This document shows positions 13,457 through 24,020 of a stretch of 64,000 nt of DNA, piece by piece. Position 1 is the first letter of the stretch. The number at the start of each line of letters is the position of its first letter. The stretch is from an uncultured beta proteobacterium. Lineage in GTDB: Bacteria; Pseudomonadota; Gammaproteobacteria; Burkholderiales; Burkholderiaceae_E. The stretch is from the NCBI GenBank assembly GCA_903934295.1, contig CAIZNI010000016.1, positions 62,001-126,000 of the forward strand, given 5' to 3'. The notes beneath the pieces are model-generated. The model did no database searches, was not told the origin of the DNA, and saw only the letters and a program-made list of their open reading frames with translations. Position numbers and translations under genes: made by a program.

Positions 13457-13924
13457 ATGCGCAAGCTCACCGTGAATGGCCGCATCGTCGATGTCGATGC
13501 AGATGACAACACACCGCTGCTGTGGGCCCTGCGCGAGCAACTCGGACTGACCGGCACCAAGTACGGATGCGGCGTGGCCCAGTGCGGCGCGTGCACCATC
13601 CATCTGGACGGCGCGCCGGTGCGCGCCTGCGTGCTGCCGCTGAGCGCAGTCGGCCCGAACCAGAAGATCGTGACCATCGAAGGGCTGTCGCCCAACGGCT
13701 CGCACCCGGTCCAGAAGGCCTGGCTCGCACTCGACGTACCCCAGTGTGGCTACTGCCAGGCGGGCATGATCATGAGCGCGGCTGCCCTGCTGGCCGAGAA
13801 GCCCAAACCCACCGACGCCGACATCGACGCGGGCATCACCAACATCTGCCGCTGCGGCACCTACAACAAGGTGCGGGCTGCGATCCATCAGGTGGCCGGC
13901 AGCACCACCGGGCGCAAAGCCTGA
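13457..13924 (+). CDS. iorA: (2Fe-2S) subunit of an isoquinoline 1-oxidoreductase-type molybdenum hydroxylase
   Basis: The small electron-transfer subunit of a xanthine-oxidase-family enzyme that lacks a separate FAD subunit. In 155 residues it carries both expected clusters: C38, C43, C46 and C58 ([14 protein letters not shown]) for the plant-type 2Fe-2S centre, and C97, C100, C131 and C133 ([18 protein letters not shown]) for the second. The product has no signal peptide and is presumably carried out with the Tat-dependent large subunit. It is the first gene of a six-gene run that continues through iorB into soxXYZA. Confidence 0.92.
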
Positions 13925-13941
13925 GCCCCGCGGAGCCCGAC

Positions 13942-16158
13942 ATGCGCACCCCCTCGATGAACCGCCAGACTGCCCCCCAAGACGGCCGCACGCGAACCCT
14001 GAAGACGGGCCGACGCCGCTTCCTCGTCGACACCGCCGCCACCGTCGGCGCGATGAGCCTTGGCTTTCACATCCCCATGGCCGGCGCGCAGCCGGTGGGC
14101 CAGCCGCCGGAAATCAACGCCTGGGTGGTGATCCGCCCCGACGAGACGGTGGTGATCCGGATCGCGCGCTCGGAAATGGGCCAGGGCACGCTGACCGGCC
14201 TGGCCCAACTGGTGGCCGAGGAGCTCGAATGCGACTGGGCGCGGGTCACCACCGAATACCCGACGCCCGGGCAGAACCTGGCCCGCAATCGGGTCTGGGG
14301 CAATTTCTCGACCGGCGGCAGCCGCGGCATCCGGGAGTCGCAGGAATACGTGCGCAAGGGCGGCGCCGCGGCCCGGATGATGCTGGTCCAGGCCGCTGCC
14401 AATGAATGGCAGGTCGCCGCGAGCGATTGCTCGGTGGCCAACGGTGTGATCCGTCACGCCGCCAGCGGACGCACGCTGAGCTACGGCAAGGTGGCCGGCG
14501 CCGCCGGCTTGCTCACCCCGCCCAAGGACATCCCGCTCAAGGACCCCTCGACCTGGAAGATCGCCGGCAAGTCGATGAAGCGGCTGGACACGGCCGACAA
14601 GCTCACCGGCCGGCTGGTCTACGGCATCGACCTGCAACTGCCCGGCATGCTCAATGCCGCCATCCGCGACTGCCCGGTGTTCGGCGGCAAACTGGTGAGT
14701 TTCGACGCCGCGCGGGTGAGTTCGATGCCCGGCGTGAAGGCGGTGCTGCGTGTCGACGCGAGCACCGTCGCTGTTGTAGCCGGTACCTGGTGGCAGGCGA
14801 AGACCGCACTGGATGCGCTGCCGATCGTCTGGGACGAAGGTCAGCACGCCAAGGCCTCGAGTGCCGGCTTCGCCGAAATCCTCAAAGCCGGCCTGGACGC
14901 GCCCGACGCCTTCGTCGGCAACAAGGTCGGTGACGCCGCCGCCGCCATCGCAGGCGCCGCGCGCCGTGTCGAAGCGGTGTATGCCTACCCGCACCAGAAC
15001 CACGCCACGATGGAGCCGATGAACGCGACGGTGCGCTTCACGCCCGAGCGCTGCGAGGTGTGGACGCCGACCCAGAATGGCGAGGCGGCGCTGGCCGCGA
15101 CGGCCGCGGCCAGCGGCTTGCCGCCAAGCCGCTGCGAGGTCTACAAGCTGCCCCTGGGCGGCGGCTTCGGCCGGCGCGGCGCGGTTCACGACTGGGTCCG
15201 TCAGGCGGTGCAGATCGCGCGCCAGTTGCCCGGCACGCCGGTCAAGCTCATCTGGTCGCGTGAAGAAGACATGATGCACGGGCTCTATCACCCGAACACC
15301 CAGGCCCGCCTGGTCGCCGGGCTCGATGCCGCCGGCAAGGTCACCGGTCTGCACATGCGGATCTCGGGTCAGTCGATCCTGGCCAGCGTGGCGCCGCAGA
15401 ACCTGCAGAAAGGGGCGGATCCGGTCGCCTTCCAGGGTCTGACCGCCTCGGGCGACGGCGAAATCGGCTACACCATCCCGAACCTGCTGGTCGATCACGC
15501 GATCCGCAACCCCCACGTGCCGGCGGGTTTCTGGCGCGGGGTGAATCACAACCAGAACGCGGTCTATCTCGAGTGCTTCATCGATGAACTGGCCCATGCA
15601 GCGGGCAAGGATCCGCTGGCGTTTCGGCGCGAGATGATGAGCCGGCATCCGAAGCACCTGGCGGTCCTCGAGGCGGCTGCCCGGCGGGCCGGCTGGGGCA
15701 CCCCGGCGCCCAAAGGCGTCTTCCGCGGTCTGGCCCAGCACAAGGGCTTCGGCAGCTTCACCGCGGCGGTGGCGGAAGTCTCGGTCAGCGCCGCCGGCGA
15801 ACTGAAGATCCATCGCATCGTGGCCGCCACCGATCCCGGGCATGCGGTCAATCCCACCCAGATCGCCCATCAGATCGAGGGCTCGTTCGCCTACGGCCTG
15901 TCGGCCTGTCTGTTCGGCGAATGCACGGTCAAGGACGGGCGCATCGAGCAGCGCAACTTCGACACGTATCCGGTGGTGCGGATGGTCGACATGCCGGCGG
16001 TCGAATCGATCGTGATGCCTTCGGGTGGCTTCTGGGGCGGCGTTGGTGAACCGACGATCGCAGTGGCGGCGCCGGCGGTGCTCAATGCCGTCTTTGCGGC
16101 CACCGGCAAGCGCGTGCGCACCCTGCCGCTGAAACACACCGACCTGCGCAGGACCTGA
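13942..16158 (+). CDS. iorB: Molybdopterin-binding subunit, IorB-type aldehyde/N-heterocycle oxidoreductase, Tat-exported
   Basis: The 738-residue catalytic subunit of a xanthine-oxidase-family hydroxylase. A twin-arginine signal (TGRRRFLVDTAATVGAMSLG, arginines 24-26) predicts periplasmic location. LPLGGGFGRRG is the molybdopterin-contacting loop and the proposed catalytic glutamate is E703 in GGVGEPT. The ATG follows a GGAG; a longer reading frame upstream would overlap iorA and is not needed. IorA/IorB enzymes hydroxylate N-heterocycles or aldehydes and usually donate to a cytochrome c. Here soxX, a cytochrome c, begins 2 nt after the stop, so the two are probably functionally linked. The substrate is unknown. 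Confidence 0.9.
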   Translation: MRTPSMNRQTAPQDGRTRTLKTGRRRFLVDTAATVGAMSLGFHIPMAGAQPVGQPPEINAWVVIRPDETVVIRIARSEMGQGTLTGLAQLVAEELECDWARVTTEYPTPGQNLARNRVWGNFSTGGSRGIRESQEYVRKGGAAARMMLVQAAANEWQVAASDCSVANGVIRHAASGRTLSYGKVAGAAGLLTPPKDIPLKDPSTWKIAGKSMKRLDTADKLTGRLVYGIDLQLPGMLNAAIRDCPVFGGKLVSFDAARVSSMPGVKAVLRVDASTVAVVAGTWWQAKTALDALPIVWDEGQHAKASSAGFAEILKAGLDAPDAFVGNKVGDAAAAIAGAARRVEAVYAYPHQNHATMEPMNATVRFTPERCEVWTPTQNGEAALAATAAASGLPPSRCEVYKLPLGGGFGRRGAVHDWVRQAVQIARQLPGTPVKLIWSREEDMMHGLYHPNTQARLVAGLDAAGKVTGLHMRISGQSILASVAPQNLQKGADPVAFQGLTASGDGEIGYTIPNLLVDHAIRNPHVPAGFWRGVNHNQNAVYLECFIDELAHAAGKDPLAFRREMMSRHPKHLAVLEAAARRAGWGTPAPKGVFRGLAQHKGFGSFTAAVAEVSVSAAGELKIHRIVAATDPGHAVNPTQIAHQIEGSFAYGLSACLFGECTVKDGRIEQRNFDTYPVVRMVDMPAVESIVMPSGGFWGGVGEPTIAVAAPAVLNAVFAATGKRVRTLPLKHTDLRRT

Positions 16159-16160
16159 GC

Positions 16161-16631
16161 ATGGCGGGGCTGGGCGGGCGGCTGGCGCTGGGCGGCTGCG
16201 CCGTGCTGCTGGCGACCACCGCTCCGGCGCAGGCATCGGGCGCCGACCGCCTCGAGACGCCGCTCACGCAAACCGCGGCGGATGCAGCGCGCGGTCGGGC
16301 GATCGTTGCCAATCGGCAAAAGGGTCTGTGCCTGCTGTGCCACAGCGCACCCATCCCCGAGGAGCGCTTCCAGGGCAACATCGCGCCCGACCTGGCGGGG
16401 GTCGGCGCGCGGCTGGACGCGGCGCAGCTGCGACTGCGGCTGGTCGACCCACAGCGCCTCAATCCCGACACCATCATGCCCTCGTACCGGCGCACCGAAT
16501 CGCTGCGGCAGGTGGCGCCTGCCTGGAAGGGGCGTCCGATCCTGAGCGATACCGAGATCGAGGACGTGATCGCCTACCTGGGCAGCCTGGGCGAACCCGC
16601 CAGCCGCAATGTCGCCGGGCCTGGACGATGA
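16161..16631 (+). CDS. soxX: Sulfur-oxidation c-type cytochrome SoxX
   Basis: The monoheme subunit of SoxXA, which attaches sulfur substrates oxidatively to the SoxY cysteine. The 156 residues begin with a signal peptide (about 1-25, cleavage after PAQA). The haem c motif CLLCH is at 57-61 and the axial methionine M106 lies in DTIMPSYRR. EERFQGNIAPDLAGVG is a recognisable SoxX segment. It follows iorB by 2 nt and overlaps soxY by 4 nt (ATGA), so it belongs to the same operon as the molybdenum enzyme. Confidence 0.9.
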   Translation: MAGLGGRLALGGCAVLLATTAPAQASGADRLETPLTQTAADAARGRAIVANRQKGLCLLCHSAPIPEERFQGNIAPDLAGVGARLDAAQLRLRLVDPQRLNPDTIMPSYRRTESLRQVAPAWKGRPILSDTEIEDVIAYLGSLGEPASRNVAGPGR

Positions 16632-17131
16632 GCGCCCGAACGAAGCCGGGCTCGGCGACGGACGTCTTGACGCCGGGCGATGCGTCGCCGCTCGACGGCC
16701 GACGACGCTGGCTGGGCCGGTGCGGCGCGCTCGCCTGGCTGGTGATCGCCAGGCCGTTGCTGGCCACGCCGGCCAGCCTGCAGGCCGAGATCGACCGCTT
16801 CACCGGCGGCGCCGTGGCGCGGACCGGACAGGTTCAGATCGATCTTCCCGAAATCGTGGAGAACGGAAATTCGGTGCCGGTGACGGTGCTGGTTCCCAGC
16901 CCGATGTCCGAACGCGAGCATGTCAGACGGATCGCGGTCTTCACCGAGAAGAATCCCTCGCCGAATGTGCTGATCGCCCGCTTCGGGCCAGCGGCCGGCC
17001 TGGCTCGCCTCTCTTTCCGGATGCGCATGGCCGATTCACAGGCCATTGTGGCAGTGGCGGAATTGAGCGATGGCAGTTTCTGGTCCGGCAAGGTCGATGT
17101 CATCGTCGCCCTGGCGGCCTGTCTGGAATGA
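16628..17131 (+). CDS. soxY: Sulfur carrier SoxY, atypical C-terminus
   Basis: The covalent substrate-carrier subunit of SoxYZ. The 167 residues have a twin-arginine signal (GRRRWLGRCGALAWLVIA, arginines 25-27) and an Ig-like SoxY domain with NSVPVTVLVPSPMSE and FTEKNPSPNVLIARF. Classical SoxY ends in a flexible GGCGG arm bearing the sulfur-carrying cysteine. This protein instead ends VALAACLE, keeping one cysteine (C165) two residues from the end without the flanking glycines. The start overlaps the soxX stop by 4 nt. The family call is firm, but carriage of the usual substrate is not assured. Confidence 0.85.
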   Translation: MSARTKPGSATDVLTPGDASPLDGRRRWLGRCGALAWLVIARPLLATPASLQAEIDRFTGGAVARTGQVQIDLPEIVENGNSVPVTVLVPSPMSEREHVRRIAVFTEKNPSPNVLIARFGPAAGLARLSFRMRMADSQAIVAVAELSDGSFWSGKVDVIVALAACLE

Positions 17132-17138
17132 GTCGCCG

Positions 17139-17459
17139 ATGACCCAGGCACTGCTCAGCCTGCCCAGCCGGGTGCGGCCCGGCGAGATCGTCGAGGTGCG
17201 GGCCCTGATCGCGCATCCGATGGAGACGGGGCTGCGCACCGCCGATGCGGGCGGCCGGGTGCCGCGCCACATCATCGAGCAGTTCCACTGCACCTACAAC
17301 GGCGTCGATGTCTGCCGCATCGAGCTCTTCATCGCGATCACCGCCAACCCGTATCTGGCGTTTCATCTGCGAGCGGGCGACAGCGGACTCGTCGAATGCA
17401 CCTGGACCGATGACCGGGGCGCGCGCCAGCGCGCAAGCGCGCGCCTGACCGTCGGATGA
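17139..17459 (+). CDS. soxZ: Sulfur carrier partner SoxZ
   Basis: A 106-residue Ig-like protein that pairs with SoxY in the periplasm. The N-terminus LPSRVRPGEIVEVRALIAHP and METGLR followed by RHIIEQFHCTYNGVDV are characteristic. It has no signal peptide, as is normal because SoxZ is co-exported with Tat-targeted SoxY. The ATG lies 7 nt after soxY. An in-frame earlier ATG inside soxY was rejected because homology starts at MTQALLSLP. The stop overlaps soxA (ATGA). Confidence 0.92.
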   Translation: MTQALLSLPSRVRPGEIVEVRALIAHPMETGLRTADAGGRVPRHIIEQFHCTYNGVDVCRIELFIAITANPYLAFHLRAGDSGLVECTWTDDRGARQRASARLTVG

Positions 17460-18469
17460 CGACGGCGACGGCCCGGGGACGCAGGGCGGGCAACGCAGCG
17501 ACCGCTGCACCCGCTGCATCCGCTGCTCTCCCTGCACCCGCCACACCCGCCGCACCCGCTGCCCCCCTCACCGTGCCCGCCCGCGCCCTGCTGCTGAGCG
17601 GCCTGCTCGTCTGGGCGATCCTGATCGTCAGCGCACCGGCGCGTGCCGCGCCCGATCACGCCCGGCCTGAGAATACCCGGCCCGATCAGGCCCGGCCTGA
17701 GAACGCCCTGCCCGACCGCCCCGGCGCCGATCGCGGCGCGACCATCGGCAGGAGCGACCCGAGCGCTGGTGACACGCGCCGCTCCGGCTTCGCCGACATG
17801 CGCCCCGACAGCCAGGCGATGCAGCGCGACGACGATGCCAATCCCGGCATGCTCGGGGTCATGGCCGGCGCGGCACTGTGGGCCGCCCCCGCCGGTACAG
17901 CCAATCGTTCCTGCGCCGACTGCCACGGCGAGCCCGCCCGGCTGCGCGGTGTCGCGGCGCGCTATCCGGCCGTCGATTCGCGCACGCGCAGCCCCATCGG
18001 CCTCGAGCAGCGGATCAACGCCTGCCGGATCGATCACCAGCGGGCCGCGCCGCTGGGCCGGGAGAGCGGCGATCTGCTCTCGCTGACCGCACTCGTCGCG
18101 CACCAGTCGCGCGGCCTGCCGATCGCGCCACGCGACGACCCCCGCCTGGCCGACCTGCGCGCGCGCGGCCAGGCGCGGTTCGAACAGCGGATCGGGCAGC
18201 TGAACTTCTCCTGCCGCGACTGTCACGACACACTCGCCGGCCGGCGTCTGGCGGGCAGCACGATCCCGCAGGGCCACCCGACCGGCTATCCGATCTACCG
18301 GCTCGAATGGCAGGGCCTGGGCTCGTTGCAAAGGCGCCTGCGCAACTGCATGACTGGCGTGCGCGCCGAGCCCTTCGCCTACGGCGCGCCGGAATACCTC
18401 GAACTCGAGGCCTACCTGCAGTGGCGCGCGCGCGGGATGGTGCTGGAAACGCCCGCTGTGCGGCCCTGA
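17456..18469 (+). CDS. soxA: Sulfur-oxidation diheme cytochrome SoxA, extended N-terminus
   Basis: The diheme subunit of SoxXA. The 337 residues have haem motifs CADCH (153-157) and CRDCH (253-257). C298 in RNCMTGVRAEPFAYG matches the cysteine that becomes the persulfide ligand of the active haem, and GMVLETPAVRP is the normal SoxA end. The mature start is near residue 64, after the hydrophobic segment 42-62. The first 40 residues are an unusual Ala/Pro-rich leader; GTG at 17573 is a possible later start, but the 4-nt overlap with soxZ favours the ATG used. No soxB or soxCD follows. Confidence 0.9.
   Translation: MTTATARGRRAGNAATAAPAASAALPAPATPAAPAAPLTVPARALLLSGLLVWAILIVSAPARAAPDHARPENTRPDQARPENALPDRPGADRGATIGRSDPSAGDTRRSGFADMRPDSQAMQRDDDANPGMLGVMAGAALWAAPAGTANRSCADCHGEPARLRGVAARYPAVDSRTRSPIGLEQRINACRIDHQRAAPLGRESGDLLSLTALVAHQSRGLPIAPRDDPRLADLRARGQARFEQRIGQLNFSCRDCHDTLAGRRLAGSTIPQGHPTGYPIYRLEWQGLGSLQRRLRNCMTGVRAEPFAYGAPEYLELEAYLQWRARGMVLETPAVRP
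17651..17710. repeat. 30-bp direct repeat inside soxA
   Basis: Two tandem 30-bp units encode PDHARPENTR and PDQARPENAL just after the predicted SoxA signal peptide, and a partial third unit (LPDRPGADR) follows. It looks like an expanding low-complexity linker between the signal and the catalytic domain. Confidence 0.75.
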
Positions 18470-18571: not shown

Positions 18572-18949
18572 ATGACCCTCGCCATCGCCTGCATTATCGT
18601 GGCCGGCCTTCTGCCCATCGTCAGTGCCGGCATCGCCAAAGCCGGCTTCCGCGGCTATGACAACCGCAATCCGCGGGAATGGCTTGCCCGGCAGACCGGA
18701 TTCCGGGCGCGCGCCAATGCCGCCCAGGCCAATGCCTGGGAAGCGTTTCCGTTCTTTGCGGCGGGCGTGCTGGCTGCGCAGTGGATGGGCGCGCCCCAGG
18801 ACCGGATCGACCAGCTGGCCGTCCTCTTCATCGCCGCACGGCTCGCCTATCTGGGCCTTTACCTGGCCGACAAGGCGACGCTGCGCAGCGTGGTCTGGGC
18901 GGTGGGCCTGGGCGCGAGCATCGCGCTGTATCTGGCCAAGTCCTTCTGA
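18572..18949 (+). CDS. MAPEG-family membrane protein
   Basis: A 125-residue inner-membrane protein of the MAPEG (membrane-associated eicosanoid/glutathione metabolism) family. About four hydrophobic helices are visible, and NPREWLARQTGFRARANAAQ followed by NAWEAFPFFAAGVL is the bacterial MAPEG signature. The ATG follows AAGGA with good spacing; a longer upstream frame has no homology. It lies 102 nt after soxA, so co-transcription with the sox genes is possible but not shown. It converges on rimO. The function is unknown. Confidence 0.87.
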   Translation: MTLAIACIIVAGLLPIVSAGIAKAGFRGYDNRNPREWLARQTGFRARANAAQANAWEAFPFFAAGVLAAQWMGAPQDRIDQLAVLFIAARLAYLGLYLADKATLRSVVWAVGLGASIALYLAKSF

Positions 18950-18975
18950 CGGTGACCTGACGGGCCCGTCACCGC

Positions 18976-18997
18976 GGCCTGGGCCTGCGCCCGGGCC
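18976..18997. terminator. GC-rich stem-loop between convergent genes
   Basis: GGCCTGGGC-loop CTGC-GCCCGGGCC gives a 9-bp stem with one mismatch between the MAPEG stop and the rimO stop. A 12-bp palindrome (GACGGGCCCGTC) lies just before it. There is no U-tract on either strand, so it is at best a weak bidirectional 3'-end structure. Confidence 0.35.
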
Positions 18998-19007
18998 AGA
19001 CCCGGTT

Positions 19008-20402
19008 TCAGCGGGTCACCGACCCGTAGAGATCGTGTTCGTCGGCACGGGTGATCCGCACGCGGGAAAACTCGCCCACCCGCAGCGACGCGTGGGGGCG
19101 CACGATCACGCGACCATCGATCTCGGGGGCGTCGGCGGCGCTGCGGCCCACCGCCTGCACCAGCGATCCGTCATCGGCCACGTGAATCTCGTCGATCAGC
19201 ACATCGATCGTGCGCTTGACGAAGCGCCGGATACGCCGGCGGCTGATCTCGGCCTGCACCTGCATGAATCGGTCACGCCGCTCTTCACGGACCTCGACCG
19301 GCAGCGCCCCGGGCAGCTCGTTGGCGCTCGCACCGTCCACCGGCGAGTAAGCGAAGCAGCCGACCCGGTCGAGCTCCGCCTCGCGCAGAAAGTCGAGCAG
19401 ATACTCGAACTCGGCCTCGGTCTCGCCCGGGAAGCCGGCGATGAAGGTACTGCGGATCGTAAGGTCGGGACAGGCCTCGCGCCACGCGCGGATGCGCTCG
19501 ATGTTGCGCTCGCCGGAGGCCGGCCGCTTCATCGCCTTGAGGACCCGCGGATGGGCGTGCTGGAAGGGCACGTCCAGGTACGGCAGCACCTTGCCTTGCG
19601 CCATCAGGCCGATCACCTCGTCGACGCTGGGATAGGGATACACGTAGTGCAGCCGGATCCACACGCCGAGCTCGCCCAGCTCGCGTGCGAGTTCAACCAT
19701 GCGGGTACGAACCGGACGGCCGTTGACGAAGTCGGTCCGGTACTTCAGGTCCACGCCATAGGCACTGGTGTCCTGCGAGATCACCAGCAGCTCACGGGCG
19801 CCACCATTGACCAGCGCCTCGGCCTCGCGCATCACCTCGCCGATCGGCCGGCTGACCAGATCACCGCGCATCGAGGGAATGATGCAGAAAGCGCAGCGGT
19901 GATTGCAGCCCTCCGAGATCTTCAGGTAGGCGTAGTGCCGGGGCGTGAGCTTCACGCCGGCCTCGGGCACCAGATCGGTGAAGGGATCGTGGGGCTTGGG
20001 CAAGTGATGGTGGACATGACCCATCACTTCCTCGAGCGCGTGCGGCCCGGTGACCGCCAGCACCTTGGGATGAATCGAGGCGACCAGATTCCCGCCGTCA
20101 CCGCCCGTCTTGGCGCCCAGGCAGCCGGTGACGATCACCTTGCCGTTATCGGCCAGCGCTTCGCCGATCGCGTCCAGCGACTCGGCGACCGCGTCGTCGA
20201 TGAACCCGCAGGTGTTCACCACCACCAGATCCGAGTCCGCGTAGCTCGGCGAGATGTCGTAGCCCTCGGCCCGCAGCTGGGTGATGATGCGCTCGGAATC
20301 GACCAGCGCCTTGGGGCAGCCGAGCGAGACGAAGCCCACGCGGGGGGCGCGCGTTGCACCGGCAGGAAGGCGGCGCAGCGGCATGATGCTTTTCTGGGTC
20401 AT
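19008..20402 (-). CDS. rimO: Ribosomal protein S12 methylthiotransferase RimO
   Basis: A radical-SAM enzyme that methylthiolates an aspartate of ribosomal protein S12. The 464 residues contain the UPF0004 domain with auxiliary-cluster cysteines C29, C65 and C94, the radical-SAM motif C166-x3-C170-x2-C173 (GCNHRCAFC), and a C-terminal TRAM domain ending near DEHDLYGSV. The first ATG lies only a few nt after the U-tract of the phaR terminator, so the second methionine (MPLRRLPAG, start at 20384) is also plausible. Transcription past the terminator or a local promoter is then needed. Confidence 0.94.
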
Positions 20403-20405
20403 GTG

Positions 20406-20427
20406 AAAACGCCGCCCGGAGGCGGCG
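20406..20427 (-). terminator. Rho-independent terminator after phaR
   Basis: On the minus strand CGCCGCC-TCCG-GGCGGCG forms a perfect 7-bp stem with a 4-nt loop, followed directly by TTTT. It lies 37 nt past the phaR stop and ends only 3 nt before the first rimO ATG, so it should separate pha transcription from rimO. Confidence 0.75.
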
Positions 20428-20463
20428 CGAAATCGTTCAGGAGGCCGGATTCTATCGGTCGCG

Positions 20464-21012
20464 CTACTTCTTGTCGCCCGGATTTCCCGGGAACGGGAAG
20501 GTCTGGAACATCGAGCGGGCCTGCGACTGCATCTGATCCTGCATCTGCACGAACAGATTCTTGCTCTGCTCGATGTAGTTGCTCATCATCGTCTGCATCA
20601 TCGGCGTCTGCACCGACATGAACTGGGTCCACATCTCGGGACTGGGCAGCCCTTTGGCGTCATAGAAGGTCTTGGACTGATCCTGCATCTTGCCCTGGAT
20701 CTCGACGAACGCACCCATCGTCTTCTCGAGATACGAGCCCATCATGCCCTGCATGGCGTGCCCGTAGAAGCGGATGATCTGCGACAGCATGACCGATGAA
20801 AAAAGCGGCGCACCGCCCGCCTCCTCCTCGAGGATGATCTGCAACAGGATGCTGCGGGTCAGATCCTCCCCGCTCTTGGCGTCGAGAACCTTGAACTCCT
20901 CGGTCTCGAGCACCAGAAGCTTGACGTCGGCCAGCGTGATGTACGCGCTGGTCTGGGTGTCGTAGAGACGCCGGTTCGGATATTTCTTGATCAGCCGTGT
21001 GGTACTCGCCAT
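20464..21012 (-). CDS. phaR: Polyhydroxyalkanoate synthesis repressor PhaR
   Basis: A DNA- and PHB-binding repressor of phasin and PHA genes. The 182 residues start with the PhaR DNA-binding domain ([40 protein letters not shown]) and continue with the PHB-accumulation domain, including [20 protein letters not shown] and methionine/glutamine-rich helices ([14 protein letters not shown]) that fit binding to granule surface. It is the third gene of the phaC-phaB-phaR series and has its own terminator. Confidence 0.95.
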
Positions 21013-21099
21013 AAGCCGTGTCTCCGCTTGCGCTGTCGTTGTTCGGTGGCTGCTTCGCCCGCTCTGCGCTCAGTACTGTGCCGCTCGGTTCCGTGACGC

Positions 21100-21837
21100 T
21101 CAACCCATGTGCAGGCCGCCGTTGCAGGAGAAGTCCGCGCCGGTGGTGAAGCCGGCATCCGCGGTGGTCAGCCATCCGCAGATCGACCCGATCTCCTCGG
21201 CCCGGCCCAGTCGGCGAACCGGGATCGTCTGGATGATCTTCTCGCGCACGTCCTCGCGCACCGCCATCACCATGTCGGTGCCGATGTAGCCCGGCGACAC
21301 CGTGTTCACCGTCACGCCCTTGCTCGCCACTTCCTGCGCCAGGGCCATGGTGAAGCCGTGCATGCCGGCCTTGGCGGCGGAGTAGTTGGTCTGACCGAAC
21401 TGGCCCTTTTCGCCGTTGACCGAGGAGATGTTGATGATGCGCCCCCAGCCGGCGTCGAGCATCCCGTCAATCACCTGCTTGGTGACGTTGAACAGGGAGT
21501 TCAGATTGGTGTTGATGACCGCGTTCCAGTCATCCAGCGACATCTTGCGAAACACGCCGTCGCGGGTGATGCCGGCGTTGTTCACCAGGATCGAGGGGAT
21601 ACCCAGTTCGCCGCGGATCTTCTCGAAGGCGGCGCGGGTCGACTCCCAGTCGGCCACGTTGCCCACCGAGGCGTGAAAGTGATAACCCTCGGCTTTCTGC
21701 TCACCCAGCCATTTGGCGTGATCGCGGGTCGGGCCGCAGCCGGCCACCACGGTGTATCCCATGTCATGGAACTTGCGGCAGATCGCGGTACCGATGCCAC
21801 CCATTCCACCCGTCACATATGCCAGTTTGCTGTCCAT
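21100..21837 (-). CDS. phaB: Acetoacetyl-CoA reductase PhaB
   Basis: NADPH-dependent reduction of acetoacetyl-CoA to (R)-3-hydroxybutyryl-CoA, the monomer for PHB. This 245-residue SDR has TGGMGGIG near the N-terminus, NNAGITRDGVFRKMS, and the SSVNGEKGQFGQTNYSAAKA stretch holding catalytic Ser, Tyr and Lys. The PhaB substrate segment HGFTMALAQEVASKGVTVN is present. A strong GGAGGAG precedes the ATG. The usual thiolase gene phaA is absent from this cluster. Confidence 0.96.
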   Translation of the reverse strand: MDSKLAYVTGGMGGIGTAICRKFHDMGYTVVAGCGPTRDHAKWLGEQKAEGYHFHASVGNVADWESTRAAFEKIRGELGIPSILVNNAGITRDGVFRKMSLDDWNAVINTNLNSLFNVTKQVIDGMLDAGWGRIINISSVNGEKGQFGQTNYSAAKAGMHGFTMALAQEVASKGVTVNTVSPGYIGTDMVMAVREDVREKIIQTIPVRRLGRAEEIGSICGWLTTADAGFTTGADFSCNGGLHMG

Positions 21838-21928
21838 CTGATCGTCTCCTCCATTGATTGAATCGTTTGATCGCCAGGGCGCCGCGCGCGAACCGGTCGA
21901 TGATGCAGGGCGGGACCTCCGCCTTCAC

Positions 21929-23932
21929 TCACTCTGGCGCACGCGCCTTCACATAGCTCCCCGGTGCGGGTTCGAGAACCGGATGGTGGCGGCTGCCCAG
22001 TTTCGCGGGCGCCGGCTTGTCGGGACCGCGGTGTTCCTGCAACCAGGCCGACCAGTCGCGCCACCAGCTGCCCGGCTGTTCGGTCGCGGTGTCGAACCAG
22101 GCCTGCGGATCGGCGGGGTAGTCGCCCTGCCCCACCCAGTAGCTGCGGCGATTCTTGGAGACCGGATTGATCGCCCCCGCAATGTGACCACTGGCGCCGA
22201 GCACGAAGCGCACCGGTCCGGCGAGTGCCTGCGTGTTCGCGTAGGCAGCGCGCCACGGCACGATGTGGTCTTCACGCGCACCGAACACGAAGGTCGGTAC
22301 CGCGATGCGGTGCAGGTCGACCGGCTGACCCGCGCAGGTCAGGCGATCGGGAATCACCAGTTCGTTCTGCAGGTACATGTGACGCAGATACCAGCAGTAC
22401 ATCGGACCGGGCAGGTTCGTGCTGTCGGCGTTCCAGTAGAGCAGATCGAACGCCGGCGGGCGATCCCCCTTCAGGTAGTTGCTCACCACGTAGTTCCAGA
22501 CCAGATCGTTGGGTCGCAGGAACGAAAAAGTGGTGGCGAGCTCCTGGCCTTTGAGGATGCCGCCCTTGCCCATCGACTGTTCGCGATACTGGACGAAGGC
22601 CTCATCGACGAAGATGCCGAGCACGCCGGGCTCGGCGAAATCGAGCAGCGTGGTCATCAGGGTCAGCGACTGCACCGGCCGCTCGCCGCGCGCGGCCAGC
22701 ACCGCCAGCGCGCACGCCAGCAGGGTTCCGCCAACGCAAAAGCCCAGCGCATTGATCGTCGGGGCACCGGTGATCTCGCGCACCACGCGGATGCACTCGA
22801 AGACCCCCTGCTCGAGGTAGTCGTCCCATCCCAGCTGGCTCGACTCGGCGCCGACATTGCGCCAGCTGAGCATGAACACCGTGTGGCCCTGCGACACCGC
22901 GTAGGCCACCAGCGAGTTGTCCGGCTGCAGGTCCATGATGTAGAACTTGTTGATGCACGGCGGCACCAGCAGCAGCGGACGCGCGCCAACCGTGGGCGTC
23001 GACGGCTCGTACTGGATCAGCTGCACCAGCTCGTTCTGGAACACCACCGACCCGGGGCTGGTGGCGACATTGCGGCCGACCTCGAACGCCGCTTCATCGG
23101 TCTGCGAGATGCGGCCTTTGCCCAGATCCGACATCAGATTCTCGATCCCCACCCGCAGGCTCTCGCCGCCGGTCTCGATCATTTTGCGTTGCGCTTCGGG
23201 ATTGGTGCCCAGGAAGTTCGACGGCGAGAGCATGTCGACCCATTGCTGGGTGGCGAAACGGATGCGCTCGCGGGTCCGGTCGTCGGACTGGACCGAATCG
23301 GCCATCTTCTGCAGGAACTCGGCGTTGAGCAGATAAAGCGCCGCCGTCCACGAGAAAGGGTTGTTGCCCTGCCAGCTCTCATGGCCGAAGCGGCGATCGT
23401 TCAGGGGCGGTGCGGACTGATGACCGGCTGACGACAGCAGCGTCTGCCACCGCTCGGCATACTCGGCCTGCAGTTCGGCGAGCCGTTCGGGGGAGATTCG
23501 GGCGTCGGGCAGATCGGGCGGCTTGCCGCCGGGCAGCGTGAACGAGGGCTGTGCGAACGGCAGTTGTGCAAACGCCTGAGCAAACGGGGATGTCGCCGGA
23601 TCCGGCTTGGCGGACGGGGGAACGGTCGATGCCTTCGCGGTCGATGCCTTCGCGGTCGATGCCTTCGCGGTCGATGCCTTTTCGGCTGCTGGCATCGGGG
23701 CAGATCGCCTGGCCGATGTCCGCCGGGCCGCCGGCGACGCAGCGGATGCCGGACCCGACGACGCGGACTTGACGACCGACGGGGATGACACCGCACGGCC
23801 GACGGCGGCGACCGCGGGCTTCGTCGAGCTTGCGGCGACCGCGGGCTTCGTCGAGCGTTCGGCCACGGGGGGCTTCTTCGAGCGTGCGGCCACCGGCGGC
23901 TTCGCCTGCCCGGCTCCTTTGGCGGTTGCCAT
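21929..23932 (-). CDS. phaC: Class I poly(3-hydroxyalkanoate) synthase with repeat-rich N-terminus
   Basis: Polymerises (R)-3-hydroxyacyl-CoA into PHA granules. In the chosen 667-residue product the triad is C399 in the lipase-like box GFCVGG, D555 in FGAREDHIVPW and H583 in GASGHIAGAIN. Their spacing matches the Cupriavidus enzyme (C319/D480/H508). PhaC is normally about 590 residues; the extra length is an N-terminal Lys/Ala/Pro-rich region built from two tandem repeats. AGGAAGGGG precedes the ATG at 23932; a frame start 23 codons upstream has no homology. phaB follows 91 nt downstream. Confidence 0.95.
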   Translation of the reverse strand: MATAKGAGQAKPPVAARSKKPPVAERSTKPAVAASSTKPAVAAVGRAVSSPSVVKSASSGPASAASPAARRTSARRSAPMPAAEKASTAKASTAKASTAKASTVPPSAKPDPATSPFAQAFAQLPFAQPSFTLPGGKPPDLPDARISPERLAELQAEYAERWQTLLSSAGHQSAPPLNDRRFGHESWQGNNPFSWTAALYLLNAEFLQKMADSVQSDDRTRERIRFATQQWVDMLSPSNFLGTNPEAQRKMIETGGESLRVGIENLMSDLGKGRISQTDEAAFEVGRNVATSPGSVVFQNELVQLIQYEPSTPTVGARPLLLVPPCINKFYIMDLQPDNSLVAYAVSQGHTVFMLSWRNVGAESSQLGWDDYLEQGVFECIRVVREITGAPTINALGFCVGGTLLACALAVLAARGERPVQSLTLMTTLLDFAEPGVLGIFVDEAFVQYREQSMGKGGILKGQELATTFSFLRPNDLVWNYVVSNYLKGDRPPAFDLLYWNADSTNLPGPMYCWYLRHMYLQNELVIPDRLTCAGQPVDLHRIAVPTFVFGAREDHIVPWRAAYANTQALAGPVRFVLGASGHIAGAINPVSKNRRSYWVGQGDYPADPQAWFDTATEQPGSWWRDWSAWLQEHRGPDKPAPAKLGSRHHPVLEPAPGSYVKARAPE
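23625..23684. repeat. 15-bp x 4 tandem repeat in phaC N-terminal coding
   Basis: Four 15-bp units (GTCGATGCCTTCGCG, the last with two changes) encode the repeating pentapeptide KASTA on the minus strand. Being a multiple of 3, the repeat can change copy number without a frameshift. Confidence 0.85.
23805..23885. repeat. 27-bp x 3 tandem repeat in phaC N-terminal coding
   Basis: Three 27-bp units, with a partial fourth, encode the 9-residue repeat of the type ERSTKPAVA on the minus strand. The units at 23805 and 23832 are nearly identical and the third is diverged. The encoded region is basic and disordered-looking. Confidence 0.8.
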
Positions 23933-23992
23933 GATTCCCCTTCCTCTGAAGCGCCCATCGGGCGCTGCCGAAATGCTTGTTAGACTCGTTTC

Positions 23993-24020
23993 ATTCTGCA
24001 CCGCGCATGCGTTTTGTCAA
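23993..24020 (-). promoter_or_regulatory. phaC: Predicted sigma-70 promoter of phaC
   Basis: On the minus strand a perfect -35 box TTGACA (24020-24015) is followed after 16 nt by CAGAAT (23998-23993). The predicted transcript start near 23986 leaves a leader of about 54 nt before the phaC ATG. It lies in the 202-bp gap between phaC and the divergent small membrane protein. Confidence 0.6.

Follow-up and report, generated by a model that had tools for sequence, protein, structure and literature searches.

Molybdenum hydroxylase genes kept together with variant soxYZ and soxXA genes in three groups of bacteria

Genes for a xanthine-oxidase-family molybdenum hydroxylase (IorAB) and a set of sox genes are, as far as sequences can tell, kept together across Alphaproteobacteria, Betaproteobacteria and Rokuibacteriota, with the predicted catalytic residues of their products preserved. 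The window analysed here, a stretch of 64,000 nucleotides, holds one such cluster (Table 1), which recurs as a fixed gene set in many bacteria of soil and water and points to a periplasmic oxidation pathway. We consider it very probable that the association of IorAB with the Sox proteins is functional.

The six-gene operon of the window

Table 1. Genes of the operon, with their positions in the window and the basis of each assignment.
Gene	Position	Strand	Product	Basis
iorA	13457-13924	+	[2Fe-2S] subunit, xanthine-oxidase-family molybdenum hydroxylase	Fer2 and Fer2_2 (Pfam), ORF
iorB	13942-16158	+	Mo-binding catalytic subunit, twin-arginine signal	MoCoBD_1 and MoCoBD_2
soxX	16161-16631	+	Monohaem cytochrome c, SoxX family	TIGR04485, 76.6 bits (cut-off 61)
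soxY variant	16628-17131	+	AACIE-arm paralogue, arm AACLE	TIGR04487, 175.6 bits (cut-off 172); SoxY fold
soxZ	17139-17459	+	SoxY partner	TIGR04490, 83.1 bits (cut-off 76)
soxA	17456-18469	+	Two-haem cytochrome c; cysteine ligating the active-site haem	TIGR04484, 204.9 bits (cut-off 110)

An earlier note on this DNA had described six genes that are separated, or overlap, by no more than 17 nt, and the ORF coordinates bear this out: iorA and iorB lie 17 nt apart, iorB and soxX 2 nt, soxY and soxZ 7 nt, while soxX-soxY and soxZ-soxA overlap by 4 nt. All six ORFs start with ATG and stop with TGA. The gene names given there (iorA, iorB, soxX, soxY, soxZ, soxA) agree with Pfam and NCBIfam profiles, although the supposedly plain soxY, rightly placed as to family, proved to be a distinct paralogue that had been overlooked. 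Twin-arginine signals can be read from the sequence at the N-termini of both IorB and SoxY. Window IorAB combines a subunit for two [2Fe-2S] clusters with a Mo subunit bearing the catalytic Glu, as is typical of the xanthine oxidase family, and window SoxA aligns to the SoxA structures 1h31 and 2c1d across both CxxCH motifs and the region of the ligand Cys. Neither ORFs nor a profile search revealed soxB, soxC or soxD within the six-gene run, and a promoter scan returned no sigma-70-like site. No regulator was noticed beside the operon; on its 3' side (18572-24001), ORF reading alone suggests a small membrane protein, rimO and polyhydroxyalkanoate genes.

The closest solved chain to IorB is that of the membrane-bound aldehyde dehydrogenase of Gluconobacter oxydans (8gy3_C; TM-score 0.84 over 737 columns, 28% identity). 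The name "isoquinoline 1-oxidoreductase" is a generic one for the predicted IorAB type. Structure comparison recovered the SoxY fold for the window SoxY as well; the AlphaFold models are of single chains.

Among SoxY models, the window SoxY exceeds the cut-off of TIGR04487 ("SoxY-related AACIE arm protein") alone. Against the true-SoxY model TIGR04488 it scores 86.7 bits, below the cut-off of 125, and its C-terminus reads AACLE instead of GGCGG, the carrier cysteine being the third residue from the end. The possibility that it is a canonical carrier is thereby ruled out. TIGR04557, with a cut-off of 140, gives 62.3 for SoxY and 48.2 for SoxZ, which are here two separate genes, so that they fall outside that family.

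Conservation of the linkage and of its residues

Named genomes were searched with an alignment of SoxY alone (14 variant SoxY of the window's order, in which the carrier cysteine is invariant). Among the best 80 of 550 relatives, an uneven sample with 28 of 80 titles from Bradyrhizobium, 75 loci have an iorB in the same orientation as soxY and no more than 7 kb from it, so that the iorAB-soxXYZA linkage does not depend on the query. These 80 loci come from Alphaproteobacteria, Burkholderiales and MAGs of Rokuibacteriota. At four of the five exceptions among the best 80, the contig breaks off 0.6-2.4 kb before soxY; the fifth, L107, shows 9 kb on that side without iorAB. Within the order, TIGR04487 was searched in 399 genomes, and 60 of the 84 places listed were fetched. 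Seven were dropped for a GGCGG or SGCGM arm or as fused or off-family (L192, L194, L195, L196, L198, L200, L199). This leaves 53 variant-SoxY places: iorB is encoded in the same direction at 45 and adjoins on the opposite strand, with iorA, at three (L188, L190, L191), while the other five (L173, L177, L182, L189, L193) carry soxXYZA with no iorAB in the stretch. One of the 45, L166 (G747:C95), retains just a 3' remnant of iorB before soxX, from a deletion or an assembly join.

Three architectures occur in the order: iorAB-soxXYZA, the same with fccAB, and iorAB-soxYZ without soxXA (17 of 53 places). SoxYZ together with IorAB is the common core, as there are loci where soxXA is not next to iorAB-soxYZ. 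At 136 loci, the closest neighbouring ORFs on the same strand included no extra shared operon member that we could see; these ORFs differ by genus, and many are spurious frames. A tandem iorB pair precedes the fcc and sox genes in L105 and L132, the second copy falling on a deep branch of the IorB clade. Near relatives of the window genome (G605 and others of the family) mostly lack the cluster.

The gene for the flavoprotein of flavocytochrome c sulfide dehydrogenase (fccB) is part of the cluster at 64 of these 80 loci, the best of 550 relatives. In 59 of the 64 it precedes soxX and soxY, following iorB wherever the contig reaches that far, and in five it lies 3' of soxA, all five being Duganella or Noviherbaspirillum. 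The fccB product of L067 has the domains of this enzyme and is closest to its solved flavoproteins, and the adjoining small gene encodes a monohaem cytochrome c.

Co-occurrence in the order points the same way. The IorB query matches 79 of 399 genomes at E 1e-170 or better. When close IorB is taken as E below 1e-210 and seven genomes with off-type SoxY are set aside, variant SoxY is present in 65 of 71 close-IorB genomes, and close IorB in 65 of 69 variant-SoxY genomes; the 399 genomes represent a single draw from the order, in which relatives do not count as independent. Four variant-SoxY genomes are without close IorB: G563 has a linked but more distant IorB (L197), in G733 a short contig carries iorAB-soxYZ (L263), G747 has an iorB remnant, and G746 has no iorB in 19 kb (L319). 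In the remaining six of the 71, a close IorB occurs but no variant SoxY. Chance adjacency can thus be ruled out: to find this gene set in each of three bacterial groups is far beyond chance, and IorB and variant SoxY also co-occur. A lack of conservation among relatives, which the earlier note had named as evidence against its proposal, is the opposite of what we see, the linkage being strongly conserved.

A quick tree of 83 IorB rows placed 66 of them on one branch (62 linked and four labelled unlinked; SH-aLRT 100), and two of these four "unlinked" rows (L190, L191) in fact adjoin soxXYZA on the opposite strand. Other IorB paralogues of the same genomes lie outside the branch, as does the linked L186. 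After 17 rows had been added, mostly unlinked ones fetched as exceptions, the branch held 65 linked and 18 unlinked rows of 83, and the linkage label needs 12 changes. Judging from these trees, whose support values (like those of the SoxY tree below) come from a quick method, the IorB clade is typical of the Sox association but not exclusive to it. Such copies without SoxYZ within the clade, together with the six IorB-only genomes, show that IorAB can occur without this SoxY, so that it is able to work by itself or with partners of another kind.

All clade IorB rows, both linked (65/65) and unlinked (18/18), keep the catalytic Glu in their GGVGEP loop. A Trp precedes GGVGE in 83 of 83 clade rows and in none of 17 outside. 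We considered clade-specific IorB residues as a mark of SoxYZ docking and rejected the idea, as in-clade copies without SoxYZ share them. SoxA adjoining variant SoxY has two CxxCH motifs and the R-x-x-C site in 108 of 110 cases, the exceptions being L086, cut by a contig end, and L102, where one CxxCH was counted. SoxX has one CxxCH in 104 of 104 and a loose methionine motif in 91 of 104. The haem and cysteine sites of canonical SoxXA are thus conserved.

The variant carrier and the canonical sox genes

A class-wide search mainly returned true GGCGG SoxY, the window alone exceeding the TIGR04487 cut-off (1/369), and in the order 24 of 399 did so. Many linked SoxY relatives fall under this cut-off; in set A3 all 20 linked SoxY match the model. 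Across 135 SoxY, a near-terminal cysteine is found in every one, C-x-[DE] in 123 and GGCG in none; 119 of the 135 are ior-linked, and 110 of these 119 have C-x-[DE]. In the SoxY tree, 90 linked or variant rows fall on one branch with three SGCGM and two GGCGG rows (SH-aLRT 97), and the remaining GGCGG rows lie apart from it.

Other arms were met with in passing. In L196, L198 and L200 (G224, G507, G635), SoxYZ with an SGCGM arm lies 3' of two same-strand fccB-like genes, which may be a further SoxYZ association within the family and order of the window. L306 (G406:C9) is a soxXYZA locus whose arm reads GGCGT, and no SoxB of its genome reaches the cut-off. In L323 (G785:C28), from the Mesorhizobium genome that also has locus L123, fccAB stands beside SoxYZ with an arm of the DGCA type.

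The nine linked SoxY without C-x-[DE] (L164, L167, L168, L171, L174, L175, L179, L181, L206) all lack adjacent soxXA, and a canonical-like SoxXA locus is present in eight of those nine genomes (eight were fetched; the ninth is G522). Acid-arm SoxY without adjacent soxXA occurs in G687, G496, G628, G714 and G545, which carry variant-like soxXA elsewhere; G383 is an exception to this pattern, and G534 falls outside the comparison. SoxA was found in 18 of 18 genomes tested, those having iorAB-soxYZ without adjacent soxXA included. Numbers are small, yet arm type and SoxXA type seem to go together, which would fit SoxXA acting on the arm.

SoxB and SoxCD had been noted as absent, which holds for the locus but not for the genome. 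A genome-wide check, whose positive outcome the earlier note had named as counting against its interpretation, found both on another contig, in a canonical soxCDYZAXB locus. A profile search places SoxB at C59:15218-16894 (882 bits), and adjoining it are SoxC (613.5 bits), a true SoxY (152.2) with a GGCGG arm, and SoxZ, SoxA and SoxX, each scoring above its cut-off; SoxD is our reading of an open frame that carries two CxxCH motifs. The genome thus has two SoxY, one per locus, and the idea of an organism without SoxB is ruled out. An ArsR/SmtB-family regulator (L007 4735-5226) stands beside the canonical soxC. Overall, the linkage on which the earlier interpretation was built stands, and the absence of SoxB and SoxCD from the organism does not.

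We also looked for SoxB in 62 cluster-bearing genomes (that of the window, 31 from the order and 30 that carry loci of the named set of 80), leaving the common weaker nucleotidase-like hits out of the count. SoxB exceeds the cut-off in 44 and none does so in 18, although most of the latter are drafts, where absence is not proof. Nine of the 18 have exactly one SoxY, the ior-linked one (the genomes of L068, L074, L095, L099, L104, L115, L118, L124, L125). From these 18 genomes, and the nine with variant SoxY only, we conclude at the level of gene content that the Ior-Sox set does not need SoxB. The presence of soxXYZA is often used to score genomes as thiosulfate oxidisers, and for those nine such a call would be doubtful.

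Possible function and comparison with known systems

The best reading, in our view, is the main one of the earlier note, namely that IorAB would oxidise a substrate carried by SoxYZ; we advance it, as a self-contained periplasmic oxidation module, only tentatively. SoxXA would oxidatively join a sulfur-containing substrate to the SoxY cysteine, as canonical SoxXA is established to do with thiosulfate (accessible parts of PMC5748708 and PMC11582611). Candidates for this substrate might be a thiol, or sulfide or thiosulfate together with an organic part, such as an aldehyde adduct. Loaded SoxYZ would present it to IorAB, which would oxidise the carbon part by the usual water-derived hydroxylation; electrons would pass through the [2Fe-2S] subunit, with a cytochrome c, perhaps SoxXA, as acceptor, and flavocytochrome c sulfide dehydrogenase, where present, might dispose of freed sulfide. 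The order of the steps, the substrate and the meeting of SoxXA and IorAB on it are what we infer from the genomic association. It can be argued that the conserved SoxA and SoxY cysteines indicate that covalent loading has been kept, and carbon oxidation by IorB is likely, its closest solved relative being an aldehyde dehydrogenase. We know of no xanthine-oxidase-family enzyme acting on a carrier-bound substrate. In a more specific version, which we regard as rather improbable, SoxXA would load an organosulfur compound so that a disulfide ties it to the AACxE arm of SoxYZ; IorAB would oxidise its carbon there, and the sulfide dehydrogenase or a cytochrome would take the rest. If true, organosulfur compounds would have a new oxidation route in the periplasm, and the xanthine oxidase family a member that depends on a carrier.

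Some of the same evidence also speaks for a protective role, where IorAB would oxidise free aldehydes or N-heterocycles while SoxXA, SoxYZ and the sulfide dehydrogenase clear away sulfur compounds (sulfide, sulfite or thiosulfate) that would harm the Mo centre or react with the aldehyde. Variant SoxYZ depends more on IorAB than IorAB on variant SoxYZ, fccAB joins the cluster, and fused SoxYZ-like carriers adjoin PQQ alcohol dehydrogenases, for which protection of the cofactor has been proposed (in the accessible parts of PMC12997753 and PMC11237559). We nevertheless find this role rather improbable, for IorB relatives without SoxYZ in the same genomes imply that the enzyme type is not generally in need of it. 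It seems unlikely, too, that a SoxYZ persulfide restores the labile terminal Mo=S ligand of periplasmic IorAB, beyond reach of cytoplasmic sulfuration. SoxYZ, a sulfur carrier, stays in the iorAB-soxYZ core even without adjacent soxXA, but the sulfido requirement is a putative one, other exported members of the family go without SoxYZ, and a dedicated SoxXA appears elaborate for repair.

Two further readings stay closer to the canonical Sox pathway. A thiosulfate-related one, where SoxXA and variant SoxYZ would be accessory isoforms feeding canonical SoxB and SoxCD and IorAB merely co-regulated, gains from the genomes with SoxB, that of the window included; it is weakened, to the point of appearing quite unlikely, by those without it, by an arm other than GGCGG, by the placement of IorB in a supported clade and by Bradyrhizobium diazoefficiens, whose thiosulfate oxidation needs soxY1 and not soxY2, a putative variant (accessible part of PMC5748708). 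Were IorAB to replace SoxCD and oxidise sulfane sulfur on SoxYZ, a molybdenum enzyme in the same position of a Sox-type cluster would be expected, as would genomes where SoxB and SoxCD are not needed, and both are seen. We still judge this very unlikely, given the aldehyde dehydrogenase as closest solved relative of IorB and no hydrolase for product release; enzymes of the xanthine oxidase family are known to act on carbon.

If the carrier mechanism is true, sulfur carriers would be tied to molybdenum hydroxylases, abundant soil genera such as Bradyrhizobium would hold an unexplored oxidation pathway, and the function of the AACIE-arm SoxY family would be directly testable with simple deletions. 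Among open papers, to which our search extended (subscription papers lying outside its scope), none describing the iorAB-sox linkage was found. The accessible part of PMC4782131 reports isoquinoline 1-oxidoreductase and, separately, soxYZ in SAR324 genomes, that of PMC12997753 PQQ-linked SoxYZ, and that of PMC11237559 SoxY variants adjoining other dehydrogenases, where a word search for "molybd" gave no match.

Finally, we would like to compare the cluster with known systems. The window SoxY exceeds the TIGR04487 cut-off, but the name of that model covers the arm only, and we found no text linking it to IorAB. IorB resembles the Gluconobacter oxydans aldehyde dehydrogenase in fold, with the loop PTGLGEP there and WGGVGEP in the IorB clade; to our knowledge, no sox genes stand beside enzymes of that type or of the isoquinoline 1-oxidoreductase type. 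FccAB, a frequent companion at the 80 named loci, was not found in the window locus. The quinoprotein dehydrogenase-associated SoxYZ (TIGR04557) likewise pairs a SoxYZ-type carrier with a periplasmic dehydrogenase outside thiosulfate oxidation (accessible parts of PMC12997753 and PMC11237559); there, SoxY and SoxZ are fused and accompanied by a PQQ partner, SoxH and a rhodanese, whereas here they are separate genes with SoxXA. With canonical Sox (SoxXA, SoxYZ, SoxB and SoxCD), the window cluster shares SoxX, SoxZ and SoxA that exceed the true-Sox cut-offs, with the SoxA haems and active-site cysteine kept, and it differs in having no SoxB or SoxCD, an AACLE arm on SoxY and a molybdenum enzyme of the xanthine oxidase family in front.
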